A stretch of DNA of 64,000 nucleotides from Coemansia sp. RSA 487. Taxonomy: Eukaryota; Kickxellomycota; Kickxellomycetes; Kickxellales; Kickxellaceae. The number at the start of each line of letters is the position of its first letter. The stretch's first letter is position 1. Under the pieces are notes generated by a model, which saw only the letters and a program-made list of their open reading frames with translations, had not been told where the DNA came from and did no database searches. Location of the stretch: assembly GCA_027577595.1 (NCBI GenBank), contig JANBRJ010000026.1:121627-185626 (forward strand), in the 5' to 3' direction. This document shows positions 27,499 through 57,652 of the stretch, in pieces. Both the position numbers and the translations under genes were made by a program.

Positions 27499-30400
27499 CT
27501 AGTCGCTGAGTGAGCGGAATCTCTCCTCCATCTCGTTCTGCAGCTGTGTGTATCTCTCCACAAGCGCTGCCTCGCCGTCCACAGGATCTTCAAACTTCAT
27601 CGAGCTGAGGCGGTAGATGATGTCACTCATGTTCTCGCGGATCCTGGCCCAGGCAATCTGCCCTGGGTTTGCCTCCACCGTGTGCGTCGCGTGTTTGTAG
27701 AATCCAATCATGTTGCGCAGCATCCACGTTGTCTTGTAGAATGGGCAGTAGCGGTCGTAGTTCGAGTATCCGTTCTGCTGCAAGAAATCGTCCTTGATGA
27801 GCTGCGCAACATCGAGTGTGATCTTGTCAGTCTCTGCAAGCCCAGACTTGCCAACAAGCTGCACAATCTCAGACAGGTCCTCTTCAGTTTGCAGAATCTC
27901 CTTGCATTTAGTGCGGAGCGCAATGAACTCTGGGTCTTTTTGCTCGTAGTATGGCTCAAGCGCATTCATGTACTTGGAGTAGCTGAGCGACCAGTTCACG
28001 GATGGGAAGTGCTTGCGCTGTGCAAGTTTCTTGTCCAGACCCCAGAACACCTGCACAATACCGAGGGTTGCTGACGTCACAGGATCTGAAAAGTCACCAC
28101 CCGGTGGTGAAACGGCTCCAACCACCGATACACTACCAAAGCGCTCAGGGCCTCCAATGCATTTCACCTTGCCTGCACGCTCATAGAAGGATGCCAGACG
28201 TGCGCCAAGGTATGCTGGGTACCCCGAATCAGCGGGCATTTCTGCCAGACGGCCCGAAATTTCACGCAGAGCCTCGGCCCACCGCGAAGTCGAATCGGCA
28301 ATCATCGCGACGTGTTTGCCCTGGTCACGGAAGTATTCGGATACCGTGATTCCAGTGTAGATTGACGCCTCACGCGCTGCTACAGGCATGTTTGATGTAT
28401 TGGCAACAAGGGTGGTGCGCTGCATGATAGGTTCGTGGCGGCCATCAACCTCAGTTGTCAGCTGTGGGAAGTCCATAAGAACCTCCGACATCTCGTTTCC
28501 ACGCTCACCACAGTTGTGCACAACGGCCATGTTGGCAAGCACAAACTTGTGGTCCGAGTCCTCGGATAGAGTGATACCATAGTAATCGTCCGCAGGGAGT
28601 TCCTCCAGCTCAAATGCAAACCTGCCGGAAACGCGCTCTGTCTTGGGCATGCTAGGCGCAGCGGCGGCACGTGCCAAAACACACTTGCTGAGTACGGCAT
28701 CAAGCGCAGGACCGTTGGACAGCTGGATACCGTGATTCTCGGCATCATCAGTCAGTGCTACGATGCCAAGCGAACGCGCTACAGCAGTCGCAGCGTCACA
28801 GGAGACGCTAGATCCGGCAATAAGCGTGACGGGTTGCGCATCTTGGTGGCTAACGACGCCAGTTGCATCCACAAGGCCAGCCAAAAACTGCTCACGCACA
28901 TCAAACGTGTCCGTGTACAGCTGTGCTGCAGCAGCATCGCTTGAAGCAGTGCCAGCAAGAATACCCAAATCCATGACTTGGCTGCGAATAAGACCAGCAA
29001 GCCTTCCGTTGATGCTCATGTCGCCCAGCACAACAGTCGCACGTCCGACCAAAACCTGCACGCTGACTGCACACTCGGAATCTATCGACTCCGCCAGAGC
29101 CACAATGTGCCCGACCAGGGACTGGTTGCGTGCACCAACAGTGTACTCGAGGCGATCACCATCCAGGCTTCCAATGGCAGCCCATAGACCCAGCAAATAG
29201 GCGATGCCAGGTGCATGTGCACCATCAAGGCCAGCATGCTCTGCAGCCATTGCCAGGCTATGACGCTCGATAAGGACAGGTGCATGGCGCTGGTAGGTAG
29301 CCGAGCGAGCTTCATCGCCCATACGCTTGATATCGCGCGCCTCGACAGTCCAGTCGAGAGCGTCTTTCGAAATAGACTCTGCAAAGAGCTTGGCCAGGCG
29401 CTCAGCTTCCGAAGCGCCATGCTCGTCGTGCGAGAACAAGCGCTTCTGAGTTCCGACCAGCTGGATCTTGCGCTTGGATGTAACATCAACAGCACTGTCA
29501 AGTGCAAAATACGAGACGACCGTCTTGGCTTCCCCGCCAGCAAGATCGGTGACCACAGAGACATTCTGCTCGGTTTGCACAACAAGCTTGTGTGTGGCAT
29601 TGCAAGTGAACGAGAAGCCACCAGTAGCCTTCTCAGAGATGCGGTACATGGTCTCTGTGCCACGGGGAAGTGCAACGACATGACGCGGAAGCCCATCCTC
29701 ACCAAGCACATCTTCGCCAACTTGGACATCCTCGATGCTCCTGGAAGCACCGTCTGCCATTAGAACCTGCGTACCCTTGGCAAAGCAGCCGACATAGACA
29801 ATAAAGTCCGAGTTGGAATACTTTGAGAGCGACTGCGAAATAACGGTCTTACCGCAACCAAAGGCTCCTGGAATTGCAGTGGTGCCACCTTGCACACATG
29901 GGAACAGCGCATCGAGGACACGCTGGCCAGTGAGCAGGGGATTGTCTGCTGCAAGTCTCTCTGAGGATGGTCTTGGGAGGCGGACCGGCCACACCTGCAT
30001 CATGGTGTGCTTGCTCGTCACGCCCTCAAACTCCGTCTCAAGCACAACATCGCTGACAGTGTACTTGCCGGTGGGTGCAATGTAGGTCACTGTTCCGCGT
30101 GCATTCGGCGGCATCATAATGTTATGGTTGCGAAGAAGCGAGTTCTCGTAGACCAGGCCAAAGACATCGCCACCGGCAACATGGTCACCAACCTTGAAAT
30201 TGACAGGCTCGAACTGCCACTCGAGCTTTTTGTCCAAAGCCGGTGTGTCGATTCCACGAGGTATATAGATACTTTGCGAAGTCTCCTGGATTGCTTTGAG
30301 TGGGCGCTGGATGCCATCAAAAATGTTTGCGCTGAGGCCAGGCCCAAGCTCCACAGACAGCGGCTTGCCCGACTTTAGCACCGGGTCACCCACCGTCAGA

Positions 30401-30804
30401 CCAGCAGTCTCCTCGTACACCTGGATAGTCGCTTTGTCGCCTTCAATGCGGATGACCTCGCCAACAAGAGCTTCGTGTCCAACACGTACTAGCTCGTTCA
30501 TAGCTGACCCTGTCATCTTCTCGGCCACAACAACTGGGCCAGAGACGAAAAAGACATATCCGAATTCGGATTCGTTGGCATCCTCATCCAGATGCCTAAT
30601 GTCCCGTGCGGCGTTTTCAAGAGCTCCAGCCTAACAAAGAATGAAGAGATAGCAGGGAAAGGCATTCATATGCGTTTGGTAAGTGGTAAGCAGCTAGATT
30701 GAAAAAAGAAGAAAGGGCGACGGCTATTGCGATTTCACGAACAGAGAGTGATGGCCTACTGTGTCACTCTTTTCGAGCCAAAGCCTGTTCATTTAGCTTA
30801 CCAT
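27499..30804 (-). CDS. VMA1: V-type ATPase catalytic subunit A with in-frame intein
   Basis: Exon 1 (30802-30804) is the start codon alone; exon 2 is 27499-30630. The precursor is 1,044 residues and becomes 619 after removal of the 425-residue intein (yeast subunit A is 617). The join gives [18 protein letters not shown], then [20 protein letters not shown]. Subunit A binds and hydrolyses ATP in the V1 sector that acidifies vacuoles. The P-loop is GAFGCGKTV and downstream blocks include [20 protein letters not shown] and [20 protein letters not shown]. The intein interrupts VYVG / CGERGNE, the same point as in Saccharomyces VMA1. Expression depends on protein splicing, because the host motif is otherwise broken. 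Confidence 0.97.
28513..29787 (-). mobile_element. VMA1 intein with degenerate LAGLIDADG endonuclease
   Basis: This 425-residue protein intron resembles the Saccharomyces VDE (PI-SceI, 454 residues) and sits at the same site. Splicing motifs look intact: Cys1 in [13 protein letters not shown], block [11 protein letters not shown] (residues 61-70), block [21 protein letters not shown] and terminal VVHN followed by Cys+1. In the first LAGLIDADG helix (LLGLWAAIG, 198-206) the catalytic aspartate position is Ile205. In the second (LAGLVDATG, 302-310) it is Thr309. The lysine-bearing block between them is not recognisable. I infer a spliceable intein without endonuclease activity. The frame is fully open, as it must be to make subunit A. 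Confidence 0.95.
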
Positions 30805-46449: not shown

Positions 46450-49400
46450 ATGTCATTTTCTGACTCTACTGTCAGTATTCAGCATGGCGACACTAAGATA
46501 GTGTTGCAGCTTGCCTCGGAGCCACTGATCATCCAGACAAGAGATGCTTCCAAAGGCTTTGATGCTGATGCCTCCATTTCAACCGAAATAGGTGTTTTTG
46601 CAGCCTTTCTCGAGTTTTGCGTCAAGGATCACCCAGTCATTGCGCCTGCCATTATGGATGCTTTTGCTAAACACTTTGGAATCTCACCCGATGTGAAAGA
46701 TATACATGAGGTTGCAAACGAGCATATTCTCGACAAAGCTGATATTCAGCGTGTTCTAAGAGCCTTCTACTTGCTCTGGGGCCATGGCTCTGCCCAGCAC
46801 CATTACCACCGCAATACTTTCAGCGAACCGCTGTCGGCGTTGTTCTCATCCGATGACATGCATATAATGGCGATGTTTGGCGGACAGCCTGGTAGCTCAG
46901 ATAGCCCTCTTGACGAGGCTGCATGGCTTTTTGACATATACCGTCCACTTCTTGGAGATTATGTGGCCTGTTTGTCCGAATTCCTGCATACCGAGTCACA
47001 AGATACTAGAATAGTGCATGCATATCCTTTAGGTCTTGACTTTTTCAAATGGCTTACTTGCCCAGAAAGTATGCCAGAAATGAGATACTTGCAGAGTGTG
47101 GCTGTGAGGCTTCCAGCCGTAGGCTTTGCCCAGTTTATGCAGCTACTGGTTCTGTACAAAACATTGGATCTGAAGCCAGGCGAATTGGTTGCTCGTTTCA
47201 AAGGTAAGAGAAGTATGAATTAAATGTCGATTGCTTCTGCATTTCAGACATAAAAAACAACAATGTCACTAAATTGTTCAGCAATTTATATGTGCAGTTC
47301 CTCCATAACTTATAGTCGCTGTTGGCCACAGCCAAGGGATATCTGTTGCTGCAGCATTTTCGATGCTTACAGATGAAGCTTCTTTTTACGACATCAGCAA
47401 AAAGGTCCTAGCTCTTTTGATGCTGATCGCTCCATTTACTCAGCTAGAGTTCCCAATGTACAAAATTGTGGACAATAATAGGTCTGATTCTCAAGAGAAA
47501 CAGGATGACGAGCCTTGTCCTATGGTATCCATTAGAGGCATTTCCAAACATGATCTCGAGCAGTATCTGCAAAGCTTCAATGCCTGCATAGATGCTCCAT
47601 CCAAGCACATGTACCTGGCTGTTGTTAACACGCACGATAATTTTATTGTCGCTGGCAAAGTATCATCTGCCGCGAAATTTGTAAAGTATCTACGCTCCCA
47701 GTCAGCCAAAGGAGACAAAGACCAGTCCCGACTTCCATTTAACAAGCGTCGTCCTGCCATAGCCACGAGCTACCTTGGCATAACTGTTCCTTATCACTGC
47801 AGCCTCCTGAAGAGCACAGTCCAGCCAATGTGTGATATTGCCTACGAAAAGAGCTGGATACTAGATGCAAAGGATATGCGTTTGCCTGTACGCGCACTTG
47901 ACGATGCTCACGACATCCGTATAGAAGAGGACCTGACGAGGTATCTACTCGAGAGCATGTGCGTTTTACAGGTCGACTGGCCAAAGGTGGTTAATCCTCA
48001 CAGAATCACACACATTGTCGACTTAGGTCCTGGCGGAATCGCTGGCTTTGGGTATCTGGCTTATCGCAACATCGAAGGCAGCGGAGTTCCTGTCATCTGC
48101 ATTGGTGCGCTTGCGTCCAGTTCAGCACATCCTCATATCGGTACGAAGGCTGAATTGTACAAATGCTACATTGATGACATTGTTACTGCGCCAAACTGGC
48201 TTGCTGAGTTTGGTCCAAAACTTGTGCGCACAGTGTTTGACGGGCAGGTGCACATAGACACACATATGCATAGAGTTCTTGGCCAACCCCCGGTAATGGT
48301 TGCCGGGATGACGCCTACAACTGCGAACGAGGCGTTTGTTGCTGCGATCAATAGCGCTGGATACCATGCTGAAATCGCTGGCGGTGGTATGCACACCAAG
48401 AAAGACATGGTTCGCAAACTCACTGCGCTTGTTGAAATGATTCCGCCTGGACAGGGGATTACACTGAACTGCATCTACGTCAGCCAGAAGCAGTGGAGCT
48501 TCCAGTTTCCAACTCTTTTACGCCTGCGCAAGGAAGGGATACCGATTGCTGGACTTTGCATTGGTGGTGGTGTACCATCGTTTGAAGCAGCAATGGATAT
48601 TATCAAGTCTTTAAGGTCCGCTGGGATCTATCACATGTCATTTAAACCCGGCAATGCTGCTTCTATACGCAACGTCCTTCGCATTGCACAAGCTAACAAT
48701 GGGTTCTCTATCATACTGCAATGGACTGGTGGTAGAAGTGGCGGCCATCATTCTCTCGAGGACTTTCACCAGCCACTGCTTGAAACATATTCTGCCATCC
48801 GAGCATACAACAATGTTGTGCTGGTTGTCGGGTCTGGGTTTGGCGACGCCAAAGGCACCCTGCCCTACATCACTGGCGAGTGGAGTGTCAAATACGGTCG
48901 CACACCTATGCCCGTCGATGGCATTTTGCTTGGATCTCGTGTGATGGTAGCAAAGGAAGCCGCAACGTCGCTTAAGGCCAAAGAGCTAATTGTTTCTGCG
49001 CCTGGAATGTCAGACGAGCAGTGGTCAACAACATTTAACGAGGAGGGCAGCGGTGTAACAGCAATGGTGAGCGAATATGGCGAGTCCAACCATGCGCTTG
49101 CCACACGGGCGACCATGTTTATAAACCATCTGAGATCCACCGTTTTTAGCCAACCTCGCAACAAGCAGACAATGTTGCTTCAGGAACGCAAACAGGACAT
49201 CGTTGCTCGTCTGAACAGCGACTTTTTTCGACCATGGTTTGGTAAAAAGAGAGACGGGCGGGTGGTTGACTTGGACGAGATGACGTATGCAGAGGTAATC
49301 GGTCGCATGGTGGAGCTGATGTACGTGGCTCACCAGAAGCGCTGGATTTGCGAATCCTATTTCCATTGCGTACTCGAGTTTACCAACCGCATTGAACGTC

Positions 49401-52400
49401 GTGTGCAGAACCAGGTATTGGATATCCCAATATCCATGCTTCTTTATAAAGTAACCCCGATTGACTATGCAACAGCTATTGTCGGTATTTATCCTATCGC
49501 GGAAACCCTTGTTATTGCATCTGAAGACATACAATTCCTTATTGAGATGTGGAAGCGCCGTGGGCAAAAGCCATTCCCATTTATACTTGTTTTGGACCAA
49601 GATTTCTCTGACCTGCTCCTAAGGGACTCGATTTGGCAATCGGAGGATCTGGATTCAGTTGTTGGCCATGATCCACAGCGCACTTCTATTCAACAGGGAC
49701 CTGTGTCTGCTCGGTACAGTACGGTGGTCGACGAGCCCGTTAAAGTCATTTTGGATGGCATATACCATGCGCATATCGATGCGCTGTTGGAACGGGACTA
49801 TTCTTCGGACAAGAATCTTGTTCCTGTGGTTGAATACATTGGAGACGATCCTCCTTTGCTTTCGCTTCCAGAAGGCGTGCGGGTGGTGGATCTTGCAGAC
49901 AGACGCGTCTTTTATTTGCCTGACAAAAGTGACCAGCTTCCCGAAACCAGTCTTTGGCTTGAAGCAGTAAGCGGCCAGAAGAAGAGCTGGTTGCGTGCGC
50001 TGTTGACATCGCAGATAGCTGTGCAAGGATCCAAGTACATGCCCAATGTTGCACAGCGAGTAATGCGCCCACGTCCGAATAGAGTCGTGACTGTCTATCT
50101 CCATGAGGGCGCTCCACAATCTCTTGAGATTGCCACTGTCGACACAGATATTCCTGAGCTGCGGATCATACGTGGCAAAAGTGACGAAGATATTCTTCTC
50201 ACAATTTACCACCCAACAACATCCTCTGGCATTGGTACGTTGGATCTCAAATTCATCTATCTGCCGAGGGTGAGCACAACATCAATTCACCAAGGTAATA
50301 CTCAGCTAGCGAATGCCGAATACCAACTTTATGCGCAGACCTGGGTTGACAAATCTGACAGTTCCAAAAAGTTTTCAAATGTGGAAGATCCTAACGAGTG
50401 CATCGTCAGTGGGACGCTTACTATAATGCAAAGCCATATCGATGAGTTTTGTTGCAATGTCTGGAACAGATCAGTGCACTATGACTGCGGTGGAGATGGT
50501 TTCTCCTACGCACCCATGGAGTTTCTCTATTTTGTTGGTAGCCCTCAGGTTCTTCGCATCCTCTCCTCGTCGGTATTCGGAAGTGGTAAGTTAAGCATCG
50601 TTCATCTCTATCAGAACGTACGGTACGTGGATGGCGTAAAGCCGCTGTGTGCGGGGGATCGGCTAAGCACAACAAATACTATTGACGGAATTGTAAACAC
50701 TGCAAGCGGAAAGCAGATTACAATTTCAATTGATGTATATCGTGAGGATGTACTAATTGCAGAACTTGAATCGGCGTTTCTAAGTGTTGGGTCTTTTGTT
50801 GACACTTCAAGGACATTCCGCAAGATCCGTGGTCGAAAGGTAGCCATTTGGCTTCCAGATGACATCGCCGTACAATCTCTAGAATATAGTGGGTGGTTCG
50901 TTTACTGCGACAGTCATTCTACTAGGCTTTCTGCTGGTTCCCAGCTAGAGTTTGTCCTGGATTCAGAATATAGGTTCCAAGGCAGTGGTCTGTATTCAAG
51001 CGTTTCCACTCTTGGTAAATGCTTGGCAAAGCAAGAAGACGGCACCATGCTCCACATCGCCAACATTGACTTCGAATGGAACTCGTGCGCGGAGGACCCT
51101 GTAATTGAGTTCCTTGGCCGTTTTAGAGTCGAATCGACCACTCGCTTGTTTAAGGATGGAGAACGTCTGCTGGAACTTCCTCCTTTATCGATCGACCAAC
51201 CGCACATCGCTGTTCCTGATTCCAACTTGGAGTATGCCAATATATCTGGCGATATAAACCACATTCATGTGAATCCCTATATCGCCGATGTCGCAGGCCT
51301 TCCAGGGACAATTACACACGGAATGTGGACCAACGCTGCTACACGCGCACTTGTGGAAATATATGCCGCAGATAGTGACCAGCGTCGTATCCGTAGTTTC
51401 GATGTTGAATTTACTGGAATGGTCCAACCTCGAGACAAGCTATCTGTAGAGATCGCACACATCGGCATGGACAGTGGTCGGATGCTGATTAGTGCTAAAA
51501 CTACAAATTTCTCGGGCGATGTGGTCCTCAAGTGCAAAGCAGAGGTCGAGCAGCCAAAGACAGCCTATGTATTCACAGGACAGGGGTCGCAAACCGTGGG
51601 CTTGGGTATGGATCTGTACGAGCAGTCAAACGCAGCAAGGGATGTTTGGGACCGCGCTGAAATGCATATGGTCCGTACATACGGCATATCTTTGTTAGAA
51701 GTCGTTCGTAGCAATCCAAGCCGAATGACTATCAAATTCAAGAGCCAGATGGGTTTTCAAGTTCTTGATAGATACCTTGATCTAAAGGAAAACGCGCTGG
51801 AACAACAGATACAGATGTTCCTTGGACTTTGCCATGAATCCGAAAGCCATGAATTCTATTCGCCAACAGGGTTGCTGGATTCAACAGCGTTCACACAGCC
51901 AATTCTCGCCGTTTTTGCCACAGCGTTTGTTGCGGACATGCGGTCTAGTGGCATTCTACAGAGCACATCAATCTTTGCCGGACATTCTCTTGGTGAATAC
52001 GCAGCGCTTGCGTCGCTGGGAGGTGGTCTGCTTTCCGTGGAAGATATCATGGATGTTGCATTCTACCGAGGGCTGTTGATGCAGTCAGTGGTTACGCGAG
52101 ATGAATCTGGGTTCTCGGAGTACGGTATGGTTTCTGTCGACCCATCGCGTGTTGAAACTGGGTTTGACGAGGACAAGCTGCGACTCGTCATTGACGCCAT
52201 TTGCAAAGACAACGCAGATCTCCTCGAGATTGCTAACCACAATGTACAGGACCAGCAGTATGTTGTTTCCGGTACGCGTTTTCAGCTTGCCACGATGCGC
52301 ATGGTCCTAGACACACTAGCCAGCAGCCCCGTGTCGCTGGCTGCAGAGGCTATTCAGCAAGCTGTCAGTCGTGTTCTTCAGAGTACCGAGTATGCGACTC

Positions 52401-55400
52401 TTTCAGCAATTGCAGACAGATTTGACAGCAAGATGCTTAGAGGACGCGCCACAGTGCCGCTTGATGGTATTGATGTGCCCTTCCATTCCAGCAAGCTTTT
52501 GCCGTGCGTTGCTCCGCTCAGACGTATGCTTGAAAAGCACATCTATCCAGCTAATGTAGATGTGGCGGCGCTGGATGGTCGGTATGTTCCTAATCTAACC
52601 GGAGTGCCGTTTGTCGTCTCGAAGGAGTACTTTGAGCTAGTGTTTGAGCTGACACAATCCCCAGTTCTTGGCTTGGCGCTTGAAAAGTGGAACAACACAC
52701 TATTGACAAACCCTACAGACAAGCAGCAGGCAGCGCATAAGCTTCTTATTGAGCTTTTGGCATACCAAGTCGCACTACCTGTGCAATGGATCAAGACGCA
52801 GCAGAAGCTGCTTTTCGAGGAGGATGTGCGTCGTGTCATCGAGATTGGCGCAGCTCCTGTCCTTTGCGGTGTGGCTCGCAAAATAATCGATGAGCAGTTC
52901 AATGCGTTTGTTGATGATGTTTCTATTCTGCACATTGAGAGAGACAAAGACAGTATCTACTATACTCACAAGAGCTCCACTTTGTCGGATTCGGTTGGAA
53001 CACCAGCCACCCACAGTTCTCCTGCAGACTCTGCCGACTCGAGCTCAGAATCTGAGAAGAGTTCAGTTGCCATCACCCTTGTTGCCAGCATCGAAGAGCT
53101 ACCACCCGCGACCACAACCTCATATACTGGGTCTGAGGATGCAATAATTGCTTCTGCTGAGTTTGACGATGAGCCTTTAACGTCGCTTGAAGTTATCACT
53201 GCTGTAATCGCACAAAAGTTCAAGATGCCTTACAAAGATGTCAAGCCTGACAAGAGTATCAAAGCAATGGCGGCTGGAAACTCTACGTTGCAGAACGAGA
53301 TCGTTGGCGATTTGCACAAGGAGTTCTCAGGCCAAGTTCCAAACAAAGCAGAAGAGCTTTCTTTCCAGGAGCTCTCTGCGTCAATTGGTTCATTCAACGG
53401 TGAGCTCGGAAAGCACACCCAAACACAGCTGGCACGTTTGTTCCGAAACAAGATGCCTGGCGGGTTTTCGCTAGCATCTGCCCGAGAGATACTACAGTCC
53501 ACGTACTCTTTGGGACCACACAGGCAGAGTGGTGTGCTGCTACACGCTTTGGCGAATGAACCATCGTCGCGCCTTTCCAACAATGACAAGGCAAAGGAAT
53601 GGCTCGGCGATGCTGCTCAGCAGTATGCAAAGAGCGCTGATATTTCATACTCTTCCGCTCGTAGTGGTCGTGCCGGTGCTCAGCAAAACGCACTGGTTTA
53701 TAACAGTGCAGATGTCATGGAGCTTCAGAAACTGCAAACACAGCAGCAGATTGAGGTTTTGGCGCGTTACGCTGGCTTGGATCTGCGAGAGGGAGCCAGA
53801 CGTGCTGAAGATGAGCAGACCAAGTGCGTTTCCCTCCAGTCTAAACTTGACAAGCTGAGAGACGAGCTAGGCGACGAGTTCACTGAAGGCGTAATGCCGC
53901 TATTCAAAGCACAGATGGCGAGGAACTTTGACTCGTCCTGGAACTGGGTGCGCCAAGATGCATTCGAATGGATTCAACAAGCAATTACAGCTGTGGATGT
54001 CAGTGAGAAGGTCGATCCTGCTCGTATCCATCGCATAGAAAACGGTGCCGACGCTTTGCTAAAAAGTAGGCTAGAGGGACTTGTTTGTACTCTCCAAGAA
54101 AACAAAGATGGCTTCAACGTCGATATTGCCCTGAATCTCGCCCAGACGCTTTGCAAAGCTTGCACAAATGCACTCTCCAAGAAACCCACTTACAAGGAGC
54201 ACTCGCTGCCGCTACAACCAACCACACGGGTTCTTATTGATGGCCAGATCGAATACAAAGAAAAGCTGCGTGTTGGTGAAGCGACATTTGCCAATTATGT
54301 TGAGCATATGCGGTTGGCTGTGCAGGCCAAGCCAACAGATGTGAGGTCTGAGTCACCACTGCCGCTTCTTTATCTAAAGACACAGTCTGGTAGCGTAGAT
54401 TGGAGATATGACCAACCACTTTCGTCAACGTATCACGATGGCCTTAAGGAGCTCTGCGCAGATGGTCTGTCGTTTGCTGGCAAGACTGCGCTGGTGACTG
54501 GCTGTGGCAGAGGATCGATCGGCGCAGAGATAGTGCGTGGCTTGCTAATGGGCGGAGCAAAGGTCTTGGCCACGACGTCAAGCTACTCGCGCCCCTCAAT
54601 CCTTTTCTTTGAGGAAATGTACCAGACATATGCTGCTCGCGGCGCTCAGCTGGTTGTTGTTCCTTTCAACCAAGGCTCGGCACAGGATGTCAAGCAGTTG
54701 ATTGATTACGCATACGACAGTTCTTCAGGAGGAGGCAGCAATGCGTTAGGCTGGGATTTTGACTATATCGTCCCGTTCGCTGCATGTTCTGACAATGGGA
54801 CGTTGGCAACACATATTGGTCCTCGTTCTGAGCTGGCACAGCGCATAATGCTCATCAATGTCATTCGATTGATTGGCGGCATCAAGACCAAGAAGGAAAA
54901 GCTTGGTCGAGTTTTCAACAGCTCTCTGGTGGTGCTGCCCCTATCGCCTAACCACGGTACACTTGGCGGTGACGGCTTGTACGGCGAGTGCAAGCTGGGT
55001 CTGGAGACGTTGCTTAACAGATGGAAGTCTGAACATTGGCAGGACTACATCTCGATTGTCGGAACAGTGATCGGCTGGACAAGAGGCACAGGATTGATGT
55101 CTGGGAATAACATACTTGCCCAGGGCGTTGAAGAGCTTGGAGTTCGCACGTTCTCTACTCGTGAAATGGCATTTAATATCCTTGGACTGATGCATTCTCG
55201 GATGCACAAAGCTTGTATCCAGAAGCCTGTATATGCAGACTTTGCAGCGAATCTCAACGAAATCAAAGACTTAAGTATGGCTGTTACTCAAATACAAGGC
55301 AAGATCCGTCGGCAAAGCGACATTCTAGTTAATGTTATGAGTCAGCTGGTTCGCCAAAATAGCGTTTTGTTCCCGAATATTGCGCTGGCACAAAAATGTT

Positions 55401-57652
55401 TACCTGAAATGACGCCCCTCGCCAAACACAAGATTCACATTCCGACGCCAAAACAGCACAGCGAGTTAAACCACCTCCACCATTTGCAGGATATGGTTAA
55501 CCTGGACAAAGTTGTGGTCATTGTCGGCTATGGTGAGGTTGGACCGTTTGGAAATGCTGATACGCGTTGGGAGATCGAAGCATTTGACGATCTTACAACG
55601 GAAGGGTGTATTGAGTTGGCGTGGGTGATGGGACTGATCAAGCGCTTCAACGGCGTTCTACCCAGCTCTGGCAAGGCTTACATTGGATGGGTGGACTGTA
55701 AAAGCGGCAAACCAGTTAAAGATGTTGAAGTAAAGCCTCGCTACCTGGACTACATTCTTGCGCACACTGGCATTCGCCTGATGGAACCAGAGTTAATGGG
55801 AGGCTATGACCCGCATTCCAAGGCAGCTCAACGCGAGGTGCAGATCGAGCATGACATGCAGCCATTCGAGACTGGCGCAGAGGATGCAGCAGCGTTCAAA
55901 GCAAGCAATGGCGATAAAGTCGATGTGTGGCCAAATGCCAGTGGTACGTCCTGGTCTGTTCGGTTGCTCAAGGGTGCACTCATCCGTGTCCCTGTAGCAG
56001 TGGACGTAGATAGACTTGTTGCGGGTCTAATCCCCACAGGGTGGAGCGCGGAAAGGTACGGTATTCCGGACTATGTGGTTAAGCAAGTGGATGACACCAC
56101 GCTATACATGCTGGTTGCAGTGGTCGAAGCTCTTTTGCGTGCAGGTATCACGGATCCATACGAGCTATACAGGTACTTCCATGTCTCCGAGGTTGGAAAT
56201 AGCATTGGCTCTGGACTAGGCGGAGGCAAAGCACTTCAAGATGTGTTTAGAAAGAGAAACCTCGAGCACGACATGCAAAGCGATATTCTACAAGAAACAT
56301 TCATTTCGACGATCCAAGCTTGGATCAACATGCTCCTTATGTCAAGCGCGGGTCCCGTGAAGCCTGTTGTCGGCGCTTGTGCAACTGGTCTGCTTTCCAT
56401 TGACGTCGCGGTAGAAACAATTCAATCCGGCAAAGCAAAGGTCATGCTTGCTGGAGGTGTGGATGATATTACCGAGGAGCCTATTAATGAGTTCGCTTCA
56501 ATGGGTGCAACAAGCAGCAGTTTGAAAGAAATTGCGCTGGGTCGTACGCCGAAAGAATCAAGCAGGCCATGCACATCCACAAGGGGCGGGTTTGTTGAAG
56601 GACATGGTGCTGGTGCAGTGGTGCTAATGTCTGCATCAGCGGCGATCAAGTGCGGTGCACCTATTTACGGCATTGTAGCAATGTCGAGGATGGCGTCAGA
56701 TAAGCAAGGAAGCTCTGTGCCTGCGCCTGGAAAAGGAGTGCTAACTGTTGCCCAGGAGATAAACAGCCACTCTGGAGACTGTGAGCCAGTTCCACGTAGC
56801 CTGGACATTGGGTACCGTCATCGTATGATTCAGATGCATCTGACCACACTCGACGGCTGGAGACAATCAGAGATTGAAGCTGTAGATGAGTCTAACAAAC
56901 ACAAGCAGCATACTTTGGCACATATTGAACGCGACTACCAGAGACAGAAAGCGAGCATTCAAGACACATGGGGCAACGAGTTTTGGAAGAACAATACCTA
57001 CATGTCACCTGTGCGTGGCAGCCTTGCGGTGTGGGGGCTTTCTGTCGATGACATTGGCGTTGCTTCTTTCCATGGCACATCAACAGCTGCAAACGACAAG
57101 AACGAATCTAGTATACTCAACACACAGTTCAGGCATCTTGGACGCACTTCTGGCCATGCAGTACCAGTTGTGTGCCAGAAATGGCTTACCGGGCATTCAA
57201 AAGGTGGAGCTGCAATGTTTATGCTAAATGGAGTGTTACAAAGCCTGCATACAGGCATAGTTCCAGGAAACCGCAATGCTGATAATATCGACGACGAATT
57301 CAAGAGCAACGAATATGCGCTTTATCTATCCAGAACCATTCAAACGGCCGGAATCAAGGCCGCAATGCTAACATCGTTTGGATTTGGACAGGTCGGTGGC
57401 GAAGTACTGATTGTTCATCCGGACCACTTGTTTGCGACACTGGAGTGCAAACAGCTGGAAGAATACAGAAATAAGCTGTCAAAGCGAGATCTGAAAGCAA
57501 ACCGCTACTGGCAAGACACTCTGGTTGGAAACCATCCATTTGTTCAGGTAAAAAGAAACCCACCATTCTCGCAAGAGCAAGAAGAGCAAGTTTATCTCAA
57601 TCCAGCAGCCCGTGCACAATTCAAGAACATCACAAGGGATTTTGCCTTTTAG
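46450..57652 (+). CDS. FAS1: Single-chain (beta-alpha fused) type I fatty acid synthase lacking the PPT domain
   Basis: Two exons, 46450-47203 and 47316-57652, join as AAA G / TC GCT (FKVAVGHSQG) into 3,696 residues. Order: acetyl transferase (Ser257 in GHSQG), enoyl reductase (GGRSGGHHSLEDFH, about 720-735), dehydratase (GDINHIHVN, LPGTITHGM near 1580), malonyl/palmitoyl transferase (GHSLGEYAALAS near 1808), a Ser/Asp/Glu-rich linker, one acyl carrier domain (attachment Ser2241 in AAGNSTLQNEI), ketoreductase (GCGRGSIGAE near 2648; YGECK near 2806) and ketosynthase (Cys3273 in GACATG, His3504, His3545 and Lys3547 in TGHSKGG). It ends QVYLNPAARAQFKNITRDFAF, where yeast Fas2 goes on into phosphopantetheinyl transferase. 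It makes long-chain acyl-CoA in the cytosol. Fusion of Fas1 and Fas2 is known in some fungi; the missing C-terminal domain is unusual. Confidence 0.97.

Follow-up and report, generated by a model that had tools for sequence, protein, structure and literature searches.

Vacuolar ATPase subunit A is a host of inteins, among them VDE, or PI-SceI, of Saccharomyces cerevisiae. Asp218 and Asp326 are described as critical to cleavage by PI-SceI (PMC1508164), in agreement with the earlier note on this DNA, in which both were said to be needed for cutting. According to the same source, the endonuclease of many yeast VMA inteins does not function, every saccharomycete VMA intein is full length, and no mini-intein at this site (VMA-a) was on record by 2006. 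In Table 1 of PMC5056185, 14 Candida VMA inteins fall into two that keep both aspartates, six that have lost one and six that have lost both, and the endonuclease is described there as degenerated in most VMA inteins. Loss of the aspartates is thus routine in this group, so that their loss from the intein reported here is not surprising. The homing cycle, as set out in PMC1654191, predicts decay of the endonuclease after fixation; active endonucleases that persist are also described there. VMA1 inteins were listed in 2018 in Pezizomycotina, Saccharomycotina, Taphrinomycotina and Pucciniomycotina (Green et al. 2018, PMC5784728), and a VMA-a intein outside the yeasts is therefore not in itself new. 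Among archaea, the Pho VMA intein of Pyrococcus horikoshii has lost active-site residues from both helices with its domain architecture retained, and archaeal VMA inteins are commonly found at the VMA-b site (PMC8966425).

The VMA1 gene and its intein

The window (the whole stretch of 64,000 nucleotides that was analysed) contains an open frame identified by Pfam as V-ATPase subunit A, with a 425-residue insert inside it (Table 1). The insert is a single open stretch of 425 codons between SDFIVYVG and CGERGNEM, with no internal stop. When the ATG of exon 1 is joined to position 30630, a precursor of 1,044 residues is obtained, the same length as had been given earlier. Exon 1 and the 171-nt GT..AG intron probably complete the precursor; no branch-point-like CTRAY was found in a sequence scan of the putative intron. 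A search of the genome with the precursor returned the gene itself, five matches in other inteins and three places at 28-31% identity, which are presumably other rotary-ATPase subunits. No second copy of VMA1 was found by this search in the 17.8 Mb, 184-contig and possibly incomplete assembly.

Table 1. Features of the VMA1 locus and other intein-bearing genes. Positions without a prefix are those of the window; C and L are contig and locus handles.
Feature	Position	Strand	Length	Junction or motif	Basis or remark
VMA1 open frame	27499..30630	-			Pfam
VMA1 probable start codon, last codon of exon 1	30802..30804	-		ATG directly before GTAAGC	
VMA1 probable spliceosomal intron	30631..30801	-	171 nt	GTAAGC...TTAG	inferred from sequence
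VMA1 N-extein, V-ATPase subunit A	29788..30630	-		GAFGCGKT	Pfam ATP-synt_ab_N and ATP-synt_ab_Xtn; V-ATPase A chain matches
VMA-a intein	28513..29787	-	425 aa	VYVG/CGERGNE	ORF, phmmer, Pfam
Intein block with Cys1	29749..29787	-			phmmer and global alignment
Further intein block	29578..29610	-			phmmer and global alignment
First LAGLIDADG helix (block C)	29167..29199	-			Ile205 codon 29173-29175 at Asp218 position
Second LAGLIDADG helix (block E)	28855..28887	-			Thr309 codon 28861-28863 at Asp326 position
Block F and intein end	28513..28620	-		ends VVHN	phmmer and global alignment
VMA1 C-extein	27499..28512	-		starts CGERGNE	Pfam ATP-synt_ab and ATP-synt_VA_C; V-ATPase A chain matches
Type I fatty acid synthase, single chain	47363..57652	+	3,429 codons		domains of both yeast-type subunits
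PRP8, single open frame	C23:121747-135510 (L007 and L008)	-	4,588 codons		five inteins
PRP8i1		-	446 aa	FHL/CREIL	
PRP8i2		-	265 aa	AWR/CYKAN	no endonuclease match
PRP8i3		-	556 aa	PHE/CLNRI	ends Arg-Asn
PRP8i4		-	584 aa	IFY/CPKEL	ends Ser-Asn
PRP8i5		-	347 aa	WQQQ/STSLA	one helix motif named
eIF5B intein (EIF5Bi)	C16:29218-30396 (L009:4219-5397)	+	393 aa	HVDTGK/TKLLD	Hom_end_hint over cut-off
FtsH-family AAA protease intein (YME1i)	C10:22119-23324 (L015:3120-4325)	+	402 aa	VGVGA/SRVRA	Ser1; PF14890 over cut-off
EF-Tu intein (TUF1i)	C74:17264-18355 (L021:2765-3856)	+	364 aa	HVD/CPGHA	PF05203 0.2 bits under cut-off
RPA2 intein (RPA2i), RNA polymerase I subunit 2	C43:133710-134918 (L033:394-1602)	+	403 aa	NMYQ/CQMGK	ends Gly-Asn

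In a phmmer search of the PDB, residues 1-425 of the intein align with residues 1-454 of PI-SceI (1dfa, E 8.4e-62), and the two share the same insertion point, which bears out the match to the yeast VDE noticed at the outset. Pfam identifies both Hom_end_hint (255.1 bits, cut-off 32.1) and Hom_end (72.7 bits, cut-off 21.1). The splice residues are all present: Cys1, N63-A-T-H66 (block B), DDYYGITL (block F), His424-Asn425 and Cys+1. The coordinates and residues given in the earlier note for the insert, its site and its splice motifs are correct, as judged by the open frame, phmmer and Pfam. The intein is assigned to the VMA-a class by its site in V-ATPase subunit A, its splice residues, the two Pfam matches over cut-off and its nearest kin, which is a VMA-a intein and not a genome-mate, PI-SceI being the one VMA-a comparator. 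Because the motifs are intact and no other VMA1 was found in the assembly, the Hint domain should splice through Cys1/Asn425/Cys+1 chemistry; it would cut the intein from the 1,044-residue Vma1 precursor and ligate a 619-residue V-ATPase subunit A.

Probable endonuclease decay and persistence of the intein

The eighth positions of the two LAGLIDADG helices are occupied by I205 and T309, as read from phmmer and from the motifs. In the global alignment, which has a gap inside the first helix, it is Ser207 that lies opposite D218 of PI-SceI. Neither alignment (phmmer, I205; gapped global, S207) places an acidic residue at the catalytic position of the first helix. Replacement of the aspartates by Ile205 and Thr309 had been claimed before; an alignment with acidic residues was sought as its refutation, and neither of the two gave one. 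K301 and K403 of PI-SceI, which we take to be catalytic residues, align with S282 and A374 in the global alignment. With both aspartates and both lysines replaced, the intein departs from an active endonuclease of the PI-SceI type, and the LAGLIDADG endonuclease has very probably lost its catalytic activity.

Overall identity to PI-SceI is 38% (159/416 aligned) and is unevenly distributed along the protein. With the limits of the PI-SceI domains assumed here (1-92, 93-157 for DNA recognition, 158-182, 183-410 for the endonuclease, and 411-454), identity is 56% (44/79 aligned) over residues 1-92, 52% (13/25) over 158-182 and 64% (28/44) over 411-454, compared with 31% (62/203) in the endonuclease and 18% (12/65) in the DNA-recognition region. 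Conserved splicing parts beside a diverged endonuclease and DNA-recognition region form the pattern that constraint on splicing, with none on DNA cutting, would produce; the DNA-recognition region may vary in active inteins as well. The intein thus resembles PI-SceI in insertion site, domain order, end-to-end alignment and overall identity, and differs from it in the four replaced catalytic residues, in a host that is not a budding yeast, in a 13-residue gap in the N part of Hint and in several endonuclease gaps, the longest of 12 residues. Like most of the Candida VMA inteins in PMC5056185 it is long and has lost aspartates (I/A in C. tropicalis, I/T here), in a different host lineage. It also shares with Pho VMA the loss of active-site residues from both helices within a retained architecture, although the latter is archaeal (PMC8966425). 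A single-sequence structure prediction gave a mean pLDDT of 35.0 and a pTM of 0.21, and the fold of the presumably dead endonuclease is assumed from homology.

The element is a further degenerate member of the VDE type, in a host outside the budding yeasts, and a normal late-stage intein of the homing cycle. In all likelihood it belongs to the VDE lineage of VMA-a inteins, its Hint domain splices, its endonuclease is dead, and it is kept because the one VMA1 gene found in the assembly is interrupted by it at a conserved position. With a dead endonuclease the intein would be unable to home, and it would be held in place because imprecise deletion or a splicing defect at the conserved site would destroy the pump. 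Splicing, loss of cutting and fixation in the species are all deduced from sequence. The description of the element as fixed or decaying, offered by the earlier note, therefore stands as regards lost homing and retained splicing, which is the best reading; the fixed state is extrapolated from one genome. Its further statement, that nothing but the need to splice can keep the intein, goes beyond what is shown, as a benefit to the host or a structural need for the dead endonuclease scaffold may also keep it.

The scaffold explanation, in which the dead endonuclease domain is not merely awaiting deletion but is kept because Hint depends on it for splicing, is tentative. It would account for an intein that is still 425 residues long though all four catalytic positions are lost, it fits the lack of any VMA-a mini-intein reported by 2006 (PMC1508164), and such a dependence has been proposed for other inteins (PMC8966425). 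Shortened yeast VMA inteins that still splice have nevertheless been made (PMC1508164), and deletions of the domain may just be rare. The related PRP8 intein 2 of the same genome (265 aa) is without a Hom_end match, which indicates that loss of the endonuclease is possible for the Hom_end_hint family in this genome.

It is improbable that the intein is kept since conditional splicing regulates the V-ATPase to the benefit of the host. A Prp8 intein has been proposed to splice conditionally (PMC6805012), and at least ten inteins persist in the genome, nine of which do not have both catalytic aspartates; yet no sensor is indicated by the sequence, and the homing cycle accounts for the pattern without any benefit.

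Host lineage and relatives of the VMA1 intein

The host was judged from the proteins around the inteins. Against intein-free V-ATPase chains the VMA1 extein scores 975.5 bits with 6wlz, 923.2 with 3j9t and 922.8 with 7uw9; 6wlz is presumably a mammalian chain and 3j9t a yeast chain. The top V-ATPase row, 9cop (1182.2 bits), is an intein-containing chain whose score is raised by the intein. The C-terminal part of Prp8 scores 2557.8 bits with human Prp8 (3jcr), 2446.7 with 8ro0, 2430.4 with 8xi2, 2276.4 with spp42 of S. pombe (3jb9) and 1951.2 with the yeast protein (3jcm), and the N-terminal part 1508.4, 1461.4, 1477.9, 1395.3 and 1093.8 bits with the same chains. A host far from Saccharomycetes, as suspected earlier, is upheld by the higher scores of the VMA1 and Prp8 exteins with human than with yeast proteins. 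In our judgement these scores, which are not a phylogeny, reflect slow evolution and rule out a budding yeast. The fungal nature of the host is indicated by the single-chain type I fatty acid synthase and by a fungal-kinase match in the window, so that a fungus outside Saccharomycotina is a fair conclusion.

Seven inteins of the genome, including one that falls 0.2 bits short of the cut-off, have in common the Hom_end_hint type of Hint, as would be seen if the VMA1 intein were a recent local copy of one of them; this, or a recent arrival from yeast, is extremely improbable. The alignment z-score of the VMA1 intein is 39.2 with PI-SceI and 8.7 to 13.9 with the six other Hom_end_hint inteins of the genome, and in a nine-row tree the VMA1 intein and PI-SceI pair at 92/93, in a tree with none of its six inner branches starred and most end branches long. 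A copy from within the genome is rejected on these z-scores and on the pairing with PI-SceI. The VMA1 intein is far nearer to PI-SceI than to its genome-mates, which makes it an allelic relative of VDE rather than a duplicate that arose in this genome. Against a recent yeast source stand the low identity to PI-SceI and the host-like composition of the intein: its GC is 0.562 and that of the host gene 0.542, with GC3 of 0.560 and 0.614, values near enough that nothing marks it as a recent arrival. Vertical descent and old transfer are both compatible with data from one VMA-a comparator. The VMA group is argued in PMC1508164 to be younger than the PRP8 group. An intein of this class outside the budding yeasts is a useful distant comparator for the debate over an old presence or a late spread of VMA-a inteins in fungi.

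A scan with the alignment of the VMA1 intein and PI-SceI found relatives in one of 13 matched stretches from genome contigs and in five of 16 from viral contigs, and all six match only the first 29-70 residues of the query. When read in frame, five of the six are apparently short inteins or Hint domains with a His-Asn end, inside unrelated unannotated proteins. VMA-like Hint starts (CFAKGTQ) were seen in prokaryotic or phage proteins, namely L042 (from a Paludibacter MAG) and L043-L047 (from viral contigs); the L042 Hint carries LAGLIDSDG and its frame stops before the splice end, and L043-L047 run to His-Asn. L043 adjoins the pair of VMA1 intein and PI-SceI at 87/92, with a z-score of 11.1, a long branch and 29% of columns filled. 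A bacterial or phage source of VDE has been proposed (PMC7282813); the placement of L043 is compatible with such a source and equally with none.

Other inteins of the genome

At least ten inteins, spread over six genes, are present in the assembly: five in PRP8 and one each in VMA1, eIF5B, an FtsH-family AAA protease, EF-Tu and RPA2. Ten is a lower bound, because the searches of the genome score the best candidates only and read no introns. Pfam supports the identity of the host genes, and in PRP8 and EF-Tu the alignments to solved chains continue across the inserts. PF05203 is over its cut-off in VMA1i, PRP8i2-5 and EIF5Bi, and PF14890 in PRP8i1 and YME1i. The AAA protease, which we take to be Yme1, thus has a Hint type (PF14890) unlike that of the VMA1 intein (Hom_end_hint). 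Intein-free copies were looked for in the case of VMA1 and EF-Tu among the six host genes; no close intein-free EF-Tu was found in the assembly, where the next match is 33% identical. The bacterial-type EF-Tu is presumably mitochondrial.

The RPA2 intein was called because of its position in a conserved gene, its Cys1, terminal Asn and Cys+1, and an intein_Cterm match of 17.6 bits (cut-off 15.6, E 0.146) over 14 of 24 model positions; the intein as a whole reaches no Pfam intein cut-off (PF14890 14.5 bits, cut-off 35.8). The RPA2 intein of Phaeosphaeria nodorum, described with Cys1, a degenerate endonuclease and a Gly-Asn end (PMC1635734), is alike in Cys1 and Gly-Asn. The viral-contig scans gave 14 matched stretches for the RPA2 intein and one for the AAA-protease intein, with no relative among either. 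An intein_Cterm match in C105, which only just reaches the cut-off with 15.6 bits, was taken as chance; no Hint was seen in its frame of 122 residues. A weak match with stops was also seen at C23:164342 (E 1.34).

PRP8 is the richest of the six genes. Its alignments were made in two halves; the third junction falls between the halves, and at the fifth a few residues are unaligned. By alignment coordinates PRP8i5 adjoins yeast residue 1584, the location of Prp8-a (the 1585-loop) among sites a-g in PMC6805012; unlike the Prp8 inteins described there, five are present in one protein here. The Arg-Asn and Ser-Asn ends of PRP8i3 and PRP8i4 may entail slower or altered C-terminal cleavage. The endonuclease motifs of all inteins other than that of VMA1 were picked by eye, with pairing uncertain in the degenerate PRP8i1 and RPA2i. 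On this reading the endonuclease positions are Tyr and Asn in EIF5Bi and Ala and Ser in TUF1i, RPA2i has one candidate aspartate, and only PRP8i3 of the ten keeps aspartates in both helices. These are D246 and D434, and by our reading K409 and K512 align with PI-SceI positions 301 and 403; the second-helix stretch scores 25.6 bits against PI-SceI and the first 2.0 bits on its own. The endonuclease of PRP8i3 is possibly live.

Fungi with two and with three inteins per genome were highlighted in the 2018 survey, Fusarium fujikuroi having three (PMC5784728). Among the matches listed from the open-licence literature, none reported more than three inteins in one fungus or five in one Prp8, and the present case is not claimed as the first. 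For an intein in the mitochondrial EF-Tu of a fungus, the one paper listed is on CASP14 targets. That the host is saturated with inteins such that six central functions need splicing (vacuolar ATPase, spliceosome core, translation initiation, mitochondrial translation, FtsH-type protease and rRNA transcription), the dead inteins being kept as a shared post-translational control of gene expression, is decidedly improbable; if it were true, a single Prp8 chain would complete five splicing reactions before the spliceosome forms.

The genome matters more than the VMA1 intein itself, as it brings together at least ten inteins in six genes within one genetic background. It may hold a series of decay, from the possibly live PRP8i3, by way of long inteins that do not keep both aspartates, to one with no endonuclease match, and such a series would make the homing cycle and the upkeep of dead inteins testable within one organism.
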